Below are positions 6,029 to 8,752 of a stretch of 21,907 nucleotides of DNA, piece by piece (the first letter of the stretch is position 1; every line of letters starts with the position of its first letter). This stretch comes from a virus, in the IMG/VR virus record IMGVR_UViG_3300021131_000057, positions 1 through 21,907 of that record; one strand, written 5' to 3'. The notes below the pieces were generated by a model that saw only the letters and a list, made by a program, of their open reading frames with translations, had not been told where the DNA came from and did no database searches. Position numbers and translations under genes: made by a program.

Positions 6029-6499
6029 TTAGTTAGTTGGTTTTGTTTCTTCTGCTTGGATTTTGGTCCAAGCCTCGGCAAGCTCAACGGTGAGTTGTCG
6101 GTTCGTACTCCAGTCTATACGGTTGACGTGGAGAACTTCAAATTGAGCAAAAAGGGCAATAGCTGCCTCAATCATTGCTCGGCTATAGAGACGGCGACCC
6201 TTGTGGTCTTCTCCGTTTTTGTTCTTCTTAGTGGGAAGTCTATAGGGCGGTGAAGGTAAGTAACCTTTTTGGTTCCATGTCCTAATGGTGATGAAGGGGC
6301 GATTTAGAGCCTGAGCAAGCGCCCCTGCAGTAAACAGCTCAATGTCCTTGCCATTAGGAAGAGGCTTTATATGAGGGTGCAAATCCCAAGAGGTTTCCTC
6401 TTTAGGCTTAGGTTCTTCAACTATCCGACGTTTTCTTTTACTTCCTGGGTAAAAGTTTTCTAAGTCCGCAATAACGGAGTCAATAATGTCATCAGCCAT
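6029..6499 (-). CDS. MerR-like helix-turn-helix protein
   Basis: A 156-residue protein. A basic, acidic-flanked N-terminal tail (KRKRR at 21-25) precedes a MerR/excise-type winged helix at about 54-115: LFTAGALAQALNRPFITIRTWNQKGYLP, then a wing with basic residues, then GRRLYSRAMI. The C-terminal part is helical and lacks a recognisable effector domain or the cysteines of metal-sensing MerR proteins. It likely binds DNA as a transcription regulator or an architectural (Xis-like) factor. TAATG coupling joins it to the preceding coiled-coil gene. No target site can be assigned. Confidence 0.72.
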   Translation of the reverse strand: MADDIIDSVIADLENFYPGSKRKRRIVEEPKPKEETSWDLHPHIKPLPNGKDIELFTAGALAQALNRPFITIRTWNQKGYLPSPPYRLPTKKNKNGEDHKGRRLYSRAMIEAAIALFAQFEVLHVNRIDWSTNRQLTVELAEAWTKIQAEETKPTN

Positions 6500-6924: not shown

Positions 6925-7071
6925 TTACTTCTTGTCAAGATAGGCTTCAAGAGCCGCAATAATGATGCTTGTAACTGTTACCTTTTCAGCTGCTGCCTTC
7001 TTCTGCACAGCCTTCCAGAGGTCATCAGGCACGCGAATAGTGCGTGTGGGGGTCTTTGCTGGTGTAGACAT
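6925..7071 (-). CDS. Ribbon-helix-helix DNA-binding protein
   Basis: A 48-residue Arc/CopG-type protein. A short Thr/Pro/Lys tail leads into the DNA-binding strand TRTIRVP, then helix 1 (DDLWKAVQKKAAAEK), the turn and helix 2 (TVTSIIIAALEAYLDKK). RHH dimers insert the paired strand into the major groove of short repeats. I chose the ATG at 7069-7071: an upstream ATG at 7117-7119 is in frame, but its extra 16 codons would run through a nested inverted repeat that looks like an operator, and the RHH fold needs no extension. TATTAT lies six bases before the chosen ATG, fitting a leaderless actinobacterial transcript. Autoregulation through the adjacent repeats is inferred. Confidence 0.75.
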   Translation of the reverse strand: MSTPAKTPTRTIRVPDDLWKAVQKKAAAEKVTVTSIIIAALEAYLDKK

Positions 7072-7077
7072 TCTTAA

Positions 7078-7083
7078 ATAATA
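7078..7083 (-). promoter_or_regulatory. Candidate leaderless -10 element for the RHH gene
   Basis: TATTAT lies six bases upstream of the RHH ATG and matches the TANNNT -10 of actinobacterial promoters. Leaderless mRNAs are common in these bacteria, and no ribosome site precedes this ATG. No good -35 is visible; the proximal arm of the 13-bp inverted repeat occupies the region directly upstream. Confidence 0.35.
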
Positions 7084-7170
7084 CCGTATAACAAGCGTAA
7101 AAATCTGTCGGATATGCAATTAACTACTTATTGTTCGTTAATTACCCAGTATTTTTTGCTTGTTATACGG
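7084..7170. repeat. Nested inverted repeats between SNF2 and RHH genes, operator candidate
   Basis: A perfect 13-bp inverted repeat CCGTATAACAAGC/GCTTGTTATACGG (7084-7096 and 7158-7170) flanks 61 bases of AT-rich DNA. Nearly concentric inside it is a second perfect 7-bp repeat AATTAAC/GTTAATT (7118-7124 and 7137-7143). One outer arm contains the SNF2 stop codon; the other abuts the candidate -10 of the RHH gene. This arrangement fits an operator bound by RHH dimers with possible looping, or an origin-like site. Confidence 0.6.
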
Positions 7171-8752
7171 AAGCTAAGGTTAAAAATTCCTTTAAACTGC
7201 CTACGCTTAAAGGTACTCCCCCTTTTTCGTCTATCCCTTCACCATCAATAATGGCGTTAGCTACTGAGGATTTTTGTTGGAGGGATTCGTATTGTCGTTC
7301 TTCGATTGATCCTCCGATAAGTATGTCTTGTATAACGGCGGACTGAAATCTAGATGATGCGCGGATGATGCGCCCGTTTCTTTGCGTTGCTGCCCCTGAA
7401 GACCATGGTAAATCGTAGTTAATAAGAAGATTCCCTGACGGCAAATCCACACCGTAGCCACCAGCGTCAGAGCTAATAAGGACACGAATGTTAGGATCGT
7501 TGTTAAAGGCAACCTTGTTCTCCTCTTTTGTTTTAGCGTCTAACTTACCTGAATAAAGACGACATTGGTCTGGGCCAAGTGCTTCAGCAATTTTATCTAA
7601 CATATCTACATAAGTAGCAAAAATAACTACCTTGTTAATCTCATCTTGTTCTAAGAACTCTTGGACATAACTTACAAGATAGTTAAGCTTATTAGAGGTA
7701 GTAATGCCCTCTAAATGCCCCTCTTTTACTAGCTGGTGGACGTACTGTGAACCTTCATTGTCAGTAGAAACATACTTCTCTGAACTGGTTCGTAAAAGAT
7801 CTGGATGGGAGCAGAGCATCTTTAATGCCCCTACCTTAGACATAATCTTTCCACGCCACATATCCTCTGGACCACCGTGAGTGGACTCAACGCCATAGTG
7901 CGCCAAAATATTAAAGGAACCACCAAAAAGGTCTTGTGCTTCTTCTAGATCTGAAAGCAAATCCTTCTTAATCTTTTCGTAAAGCTTAGAGGACTTTCGA
8001 TCGAAGACAACCTTGATGGGATCTTTATGAATAGCCTCTGGTAGATATGGGGCTACATCAGGATCTTTTTGCGCTTTACGAACTGAAGCTTGTTTCATCT
8101 TTTGATGCAGTATCTCAAGGTTGCGGTAACTTGTAACTGCACCCCAGCTATTTCTAATGATGTATGTTTGATCGAACCATTTAAAGTCACCAAGAACTTT
8201 AGAGTCTACAAACTGCATAATGCTAAAGAGTTCTTCAGGCTTACCGTTCTCAATAGGCGTTCCTGTAAGAGCAAACTTATAAGGGGCTCCAGAAAGCCTT
8301 TTTGTGTACTTAGAACGCTTGGAACGAAATGACTTGATAGCCGTAGCTTCGTCTAATACTACAAATCCTCTTGGGAGGTCTTTGACGAATTCCCAGTCAT
8401 TAACGACCTGCTCATAGTTAAGAATGATGTAGTCGACTCTGGAGTTTTTCCAGTCGTTGGCAATTGCGTATTGCTCTTCTCTTTTAGCTTTGGTTCCATC
8501 AATGACCAGAGCACGTGAAGTACCATCTGTAAATTTCTCAATCTGATTAGCCCACTGGTATTTAAGTGAGGATAAACAGATTACCAAACCTGGCTCGCTT
8601 ATGGAACGTGAATCCATGAGGCGTTCTATGGCGGCAATAGTCAGCACGGTTTTACCCAAACCAAGGTCGTAGGCAACGAGCATCTTCTGACGATCGCACA
8701 TACGGTTAACCGCTTCGGGTTGGTAAGGTAAAAGGGTGCCTGTAAAGGTCAT
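7163..8752 (-). CDS. SNF2/SF2-type DNA helicase-translocase
   Basis: A 529-residue superfamily 2 ATPase. Motifs appear in order: Q-like LLPYQPEAV (7-15), motif I DLGLGKT (29-35), motif II DEAT (134-137), motif III LTGTPIEN (162-169), and in the second RecA-like domain VLISSDAGGYGVDL and the arginine-finger motif QRNGRIIRASS. This is the SNF2-type set found in many phages, where such proteins move along dsDNA to remodel forks or strip bound proteins. No additional domain is fused. ATGA overlap with the dNMP kinase gene places it last in the coupled replication run. The stop codon lies inside an arm of the 13-bp inverted repeat. Confidence 0.93.
   Translation of the reverse strand: MTFTGTLLPYQPEAVNRMCDRQKMLVAYDLGLGKTVLTIAAIERLMDSRSISEPGLVICLSSLKYQWANQIEKFTDGTSRALVIDGTKAKREEQYAIANDWKNSRVDYIILNYEQVVNDWEFVKDLPRGFVVLDEATAIKSFRSKRSKYTKRLSGAPYKFALTGTPIENGKPEELFSIMQFVDSKVLGDFKWFDQTYIIRNSWGAVTSYRNLEILHQKMKQASVRKAQKDPDVAPYLPEAIHKDPIKVVFDRKSSKLYEKIKKDLLSDLEEAQDLFGGSFNILAHYGVESTHGGPEDMWRGKIMSKVGALKMLCSHPDLLRTSSEKYVSTDNEGSQYVHQLVKEGHLEGITTSNKLNYLVSYVQEFLEQDEINKVVIFATYVDMLDKIAEALGPDQCRLYSGKLDAKTKEENKVAFNNDPNIRVLISSDAGGYGVDLPSGNLLINYDLPWSSGAATQRNGRIIRASSRFQSAVIQDILIGGSIEERQYESLQQKSSVANAIIDGEGIDEKGGVPLSVGSLKEFLTLASV

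Follow-up and report, generated by a model that had tools for sequence, protein, structure and literature searches.

A nested palindrome between phage SNF2 and RHH genes reads as an optional RNA hairpin with a strongly conserved tip

What is the role of two concentric inverted repeats lying between the gene for an SNF2-type DNA helicase and the gene for a small RHH protein in a virus genome? We addressed this question in IMG/VR record IMGVR_UViG_3300021131_000057, of which the whole analysed stretch of 21,907 nucleotides is called the window here. A preliminary description had read the repeats as binding sites, and its geometry proved accurate: both pairs of arms are perfect and lie, to the base, where it had placed them, and their centres, given as about four bases apart, fall at 7127 and 7130.5, that is, 3.5 bases apart. 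The gap that holds them (7072-7162, 91 bp) is indeed the largest between genes as called in this analysis. We likewise confirmed that one outer arm (7158-7170) covers the SNF2 stop codon (7163-7165), and that the other (7084-7096) abuts the hexamer TATTAT (7083-7078, minus strand), with the RHH ATG (7071) six bases further on. The features of the locus are as follows.

7084-7096 and 7158-7170: outer arms, perfect over 13 bp, CCGTATAACAAGC and GCTTGTTATACGG
7118-7124 and 7137-7143: inner arms, perfect over 7 bp, AATTAAC and GTTAATT
7084-7170, minus strand (the strand of the genes): predicted structured RNA element, 87 nt, from RNA folding, covariation over 7 sequences and model R1
7147-7170, minus strand: outer stem, 5' side, including the last SNF2 codons and the stop codon (7163-7165)
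7084-7107, minus strand: outer stem, 3' side, ending directly at the RHH -10 box
7137-7145, minus strand: inner 9-bp stem, 5' strand, GUAAUUAAC
7116-7124, minus strand: inner stem, 3' strand, GUUAAUUGC
7134-7136, minus strand: apical loop, 5' side, GAA, invariant in 7/7 sequences
7125-7128, minus strand: apical loop, 3' side, AGUA, invariant in 7/7 sequences
7108-7115, minus strand: asymmetric internal loop, AUAUCCGA, with AUCCG invariant in 7/7 sequences
7078-7083, minus strand: RHH -10 box TATTAT, at -12 to -7 from the ATG
6925-7071, minus strand: RHH protein, 48 aa (RHH_1/CopG; Arc-like PHROG 6506)
7163-8752, minus strand: SNF2-type DNA helicase, 529 aa

The outer repeat is longer than first described, with 24 nt per arm (7084-7107 and 7147-7170) that are 83% complementary, and the inner stem extends to 9 bp (7116-7124 and 7137-7145). 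The GC content of the element is 33%. A perfect 13-bp pair with a spacer of up to 100 occurs once in the window, and 4 of 100 dinucleotide shuffles contain any such pair (mean 0.05). The inner 7-bp pair taken alone is unremarkable, since the window holds 24 pairs of this kind against 20.7 ± 6.3 expected.

That the nested palindrome corresponds to an RNA hairpin of 87 bases, the tip of which is strongly conserved, is well supported by comparison of seven distinct IMG/VR sequences, all of one locus. On the gene strand, the 87 nt fold at -29.2 kcal/mol (z = -6.5), a value matched by 0 of 200 shuffles. Folding z-scores range from -4.5 to -6.9 for the window and five relatives, and the sense strand is more stable than the antisense strand in 6/6. 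(The strongest gene-strand folding of the window, -36 kcal/mol for 87 nt, lies elsewhere, inside an ORF at 1337-1450 on the minus strand.) With six sequences in a plain MAFFT alignment, both sides had changed in 9 of the 33 pairs, a number reached by 1 of 500 shuffles. Addition of the relative L222, to make seven sequences, brought these both-side changes to 15/33 pairs (0/500 shuffles; 0-4 in slid controls), in an alignment (A3) that was fitted to the covariance model and so leans towards it, whereas the six-sequence MAFFT alignment was not model-fitted. On the first six sequences, RNAalifold credited no net bonus for covariation (+1.07), since some of the pairs do not form in one member or another. 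G.U cells outnumbered A.C cells by 14 to 4 (p about 0.03, the cells not being independent). Furthermore, identity in the core is 0.73-0.98, against 0.43-0.62 at fourfold-degenerate SNF2 sites of the same phage pairs; it is 0.42-0.85 in the outer stem, the arms of which vary in sequence among carriers with pairing retained. Covariance model R1 finds L222 and L223 at 57.7 bits (E 3.7e-15 for L222). By eye, no open frame runs through the core. Pairing that is kept, constraint in the core and a strand bias favouring the gene strand together form the signature of a structured RNA. The proposal that two palindromes of different size call for two binders is not supported, as a single hairpin accounts for both, the outer repeat forming its lower part and the inner repeat its upper part.

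The element follows a common formula in 7/7 sequences. On the 5' side, the outer stem is followed by CUG, 1-2 nt, the inner stem (about 8-9 bp) and GAA; 4-5 nt separate GAA from AGUA, after which come the second strand of the inner stem, a few nt, AUCCG(A/U), CAG and the other side of the outer stem. GAA facing AGUA in an apical loop is the arrangement of the sarcin-ricin (bulged-G) module, and AGUA is found opposite GAA in 7/7 sequences. The hallmarks of this module are a bulged G, a conserved U and a sheared A-G pair (PMC8450098). Judged by its letters, the apical loop would fit such a module.

Rfam 15 gave 0 matches in the window, and none over the element even at E values up to 5. The element is not a tRNA, as ARAGORN finds none in carriers, nor a dispersed repeat, since scans of IMG/VR with the core pattern gave this locus only, plus chance matches. 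Among GTDB genomes there were 13 pattern matches, none above noise by the covariance model; cultured phages gave no significant DNA match to the element, and the covariance model detected it in none of 64 loci belonging to an SNF2 clade further away. A scan for intrinsic terminators found none at 7084-7170, where a GC-rich stem and small loop followed by a U run are not present.

We then asked how the element is distributed. A query with the SNF2 gene gave 80 relatives in IMG/VR, and the set was widened by scans from L010, L222 and L352. Carriers comprise the clade of the window (L001/L002, L004, L005/L006, L007, L009, L010) and L222/L223, with elements of 85-89 bases. All seven element sequences occupy the slot that separates the SNF2 stop codon from the promoter of RHH, and the distance to the -10 box varies from 0 nt to the 13 nt of L222. 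Every carrier record searched (5 records) has one copy at one locus. The element can be missing from very close relatives: L003 lacks it with an SNF2 gene 99% identical to that of the window in protein and 94.6% in DNA, and so does L008, although it is nearest to the carrier L007 (92.9% SNF2 DNA identity). On the SNF2 tree, the presence of the element needs four changes, with L222 outside the main carrier clade. This patchiness marks the element as an optional module, which by the sequences compared could be either old, with several losses, or transferred between phages.

The slot between SNF2 and RHH varies strikingly among relatives, and in many of them it spans only 7-17 bases. In L008, the SNF2 stop codon is followed not by the element but by a short, plain hairpin that lacks the conserved core. 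In many relatives the slot is filled by an array of tRNA-Asn(gtt), tRNA-Gly(gcc) and tRNA-Gln(ctg) (L041, L043, L046, L050, L053, L057, L070, L071, L073, L079, L258 and L265), and L263 and L333 have one or two of these three tRNAs. Inserts of about 500-800 nt, in several cases between tRNA genes, occupy the slot of L304, L350, L352, L358 and L267, which gives it the look of a hotspot for insertions. In L028, L029 and L031, the SNF2 stop codon is followed by an insert of about 225 nt; read by eye, its antisense strand resembles a fragment of an HNH endonuclease (HLDHVIALSKGGTDLIENIRPTHVLCN).

Among cultured phages, the nearest are BRock-type phages of Streptomyces, with about 40% identity in SNF2 and DNA polymerase. 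This agrees with an actinobacterial host; we infer a freshwater actinobacterium. In BRock, no annotated RHH gene directly follows SNF2, and a search of GTDB genomes with SNF2 gave no relative, hence no host link. Elsewhere in the window, a 156-aa protein (6029-6499, minus strand) without Pfam or PHROG match has, by eye, the look of a MerR/excisionase-type DNA-binding protein.

Whether or not the palindrome is there, a TAnnnT motif stands at exactly -12 to -7 of the RHH ATG: of 58 distinct upstream sites, 57 have it, and the sole exception is the L028/L029/L031 group with its insert in the slot. In compact relatives, the SNF2 stop codon itself forms part of the RHH -10 box (GTATAAT). TANNNT about 12 bp before the start codon, without a Shine-Dalgarno (SD) sequence, is the signature of leaderless actinobacterial genes (PMC3160421), and the RHH gene shows both this position and the absence of an SD; the next gene after it has an ordinary one, AAAGGGG. 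At spacings of 16-18 we found no TTG of a -35 hexamer in 60 distinct RHH upstream regions, so that there is nothing of that kind for an arm of the hairpin to overlap. A leaderless promoter means that the RHH gene opens a transcription unit, and places the hairpin in the tail of the preceding one. The earlier suggestion that the palindrome may split the gene run into two transcripts is thus supported as to the spot, where RHH has its own -10 box, but not as to the divider: since the box stands at the leaderless distance regardless of the palindrome, it is the promoter that marks the division.

We put at about one half the probability that the element is a cis-acting structured RNA that ends the helicase (DnaB/primase/SNF2) transcript and carries a core recognised by a factor; a boundary RNA of this kind is the most likely function of the hairpin. 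This model builds on the structure established by comparison, on the position, on the constraint and on the optional presence. It supposes in addition that the element is transcribed, that an end forms there and that a factor reads the core. Once the polymerase had passed the SNF2 stop codon, the RNA would fold, and the folded hairpin would set the 3' end of the helicase mRNA, be it through pausing or termination, through processing by a nuclease or as a stability end. Formation of this end would keep read-through off the RHH promoter, and the frozen core would be the recognition site of a putative host or phage factor. In favour of the model, 0-13 nt separate the end of the hairpin from the -10 box belonging to the next unit. 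Moreover, relatives with tRNAs in the slot and some others (L043, L053, L071, L258, L265, L325) have another hairpin, ACCCAACG...CGUUGGG, GC-rich and lacking a U run, that stops 0-5 nt short of the RHH -10 box, an indication that hairpins have repeatedly been of use at this border. Against it, the stem is AU-rich and the loop too large for a classical intrinsic terminator, and the sole U-rich tail is the -10 box itself. Border hairpins are evidently not required, because most relatives have none there, and a frozen tip would be superfluous in a hairpin that did no more than mark a border. It is possible, if on balance unlikely, that the element represents a new class of small phage RNA of about 87 nt, a stem with a sarcin-ricin-like cap and a frozen AUCCG internal loop, which would bind a specific host factor or ligand (or self-cleave) and thereby control the boundary at which the helicase unit meets the leaderless RHH unit.

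The strongest rival of the boundary RNA is a small RNA acting in trans, the GAA/AGUA and AUCCGA loops of which would pair with or bind a host target, the outer stem serving only as end protection. A conserved single-stranded core on a variable, covarying stem is what such an RNA would look like, the element is an independent, single-copy, gene-like unit, and the tRNA genes in the same slot of relatives indicate that the slot tolerates RNA genes. However, a promoter of its own was not found, the SNF2 stop codon lies within its 5' arm and the target is without a known candidate, so that we regard this reading as doubtful.

A role at the DNA level, as a replication or recombination hairpin (a single-strand origin or an attC-like site) or as a site for a protein other than RHH, appears improbable. 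Its position between replication genes and the perfect 13-bp arms of the window copy would agree with it. On the other hand, the G.U bias is to one strand, arm sequences are not conserved, the spacing to the promoter is variable, and a turn in GC skew near 7.1 kb was looked for and is absent. The loss of the element in very close relatives also shows that it is not an essential origin.

No more credit can be given to a riboswitch-like or protein-operated attenuator of read-through into the RHH operon. The frozen core on a variable stem is aptamer-like and the element stands directly before the RHH gene, but in essentially all relatives the leaderless RHH promoter lies downstream of the hairpin, a conserved alternative pairing is not seen and there is no SD to be hidden. 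Presence or absence between close relatives, in a slot that also holds tRNAs and the putative HNH fragment of L028, could be expected of a decayed, functionless MITE-like mobile element; this is very unlikely, as there is no target-site duplication, no second copy in any record searched and the core is strongly constrained.

Finally, the operator for the RHH protein, with or without looping, that the preliminary description had proposed is hardly credible: the palindromes do adjoin the RHH gene, and the centres of the arms are 74 bp apart, about seven helical turns, but the arms are missing from about 50 distinct relatives in which the RHH gene is kept. Arm conservation in RHH-bearing relatives had been named as the decisive check, and it went against the operator. 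Indeed, L007 and L008 have one and the same RHH protein sequence, and the element is in L007 only; L001 and L003 offer the same contrast, and the RHH protein of L003 begins like that of the window (the contig ends there), yet the element is absent. Among carriers the arms read AACAAGC, AACTGGC, AATTGGC, ACATTGGC and AATATGGC, while the DNA-contact strand of the protein, TRTIRV, is invariant in those compared.

To our knowledge, almost nothing is known of how genes are regulated in the phages of Actinobacteria that are uncultured and probably live in freshwater. The element provides a defined RNA with a natural on/off contrast (L007 versus L008, the window versus L003), and the precise leaderless promoter allows the early region to be split into units of transcription. 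Should the core bind a host factor, it would also offer a handle on host RNA biology that is beyond the reach of culture.

Several known systems bear comparison with this locus. The resemblance to leaderless TANNNT genes (PMC3160421) concerns the neighbouring RHH promoter and not the hairpin. RNA motifs found by comparative genomics (PMC2864571, PMC8040213; Rfam) share with the element covarying stems, a conserved single-stranded core, an intergenic location and a metagenomic origin, whereas the element matches no Rfam 15 family, has a tiny distribution and stands at the 3' end of a unit instead of in a 5' leader. Like intrinsic terminators, it is a hairpin after the last gene of a unit, followed in the main clade by a U-rich stretch (UAUUAUUU); unlike them, it has a structured loop region of 40 nt and an AU-rich stem, and its U-rich stretch is the -10 box of the next promoter. 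The early mRNA of phage T7 is processed by RNase III at intercistronic hairpins that are long and imperfect, contain an internal loop and have a stem sequence free to vary. The element differs from these in its invariant apical loop, which RNase III does not need, but it resembles them in being a long, imperfect hairpin between early genes, with an internal loop and a variable stem sequence.
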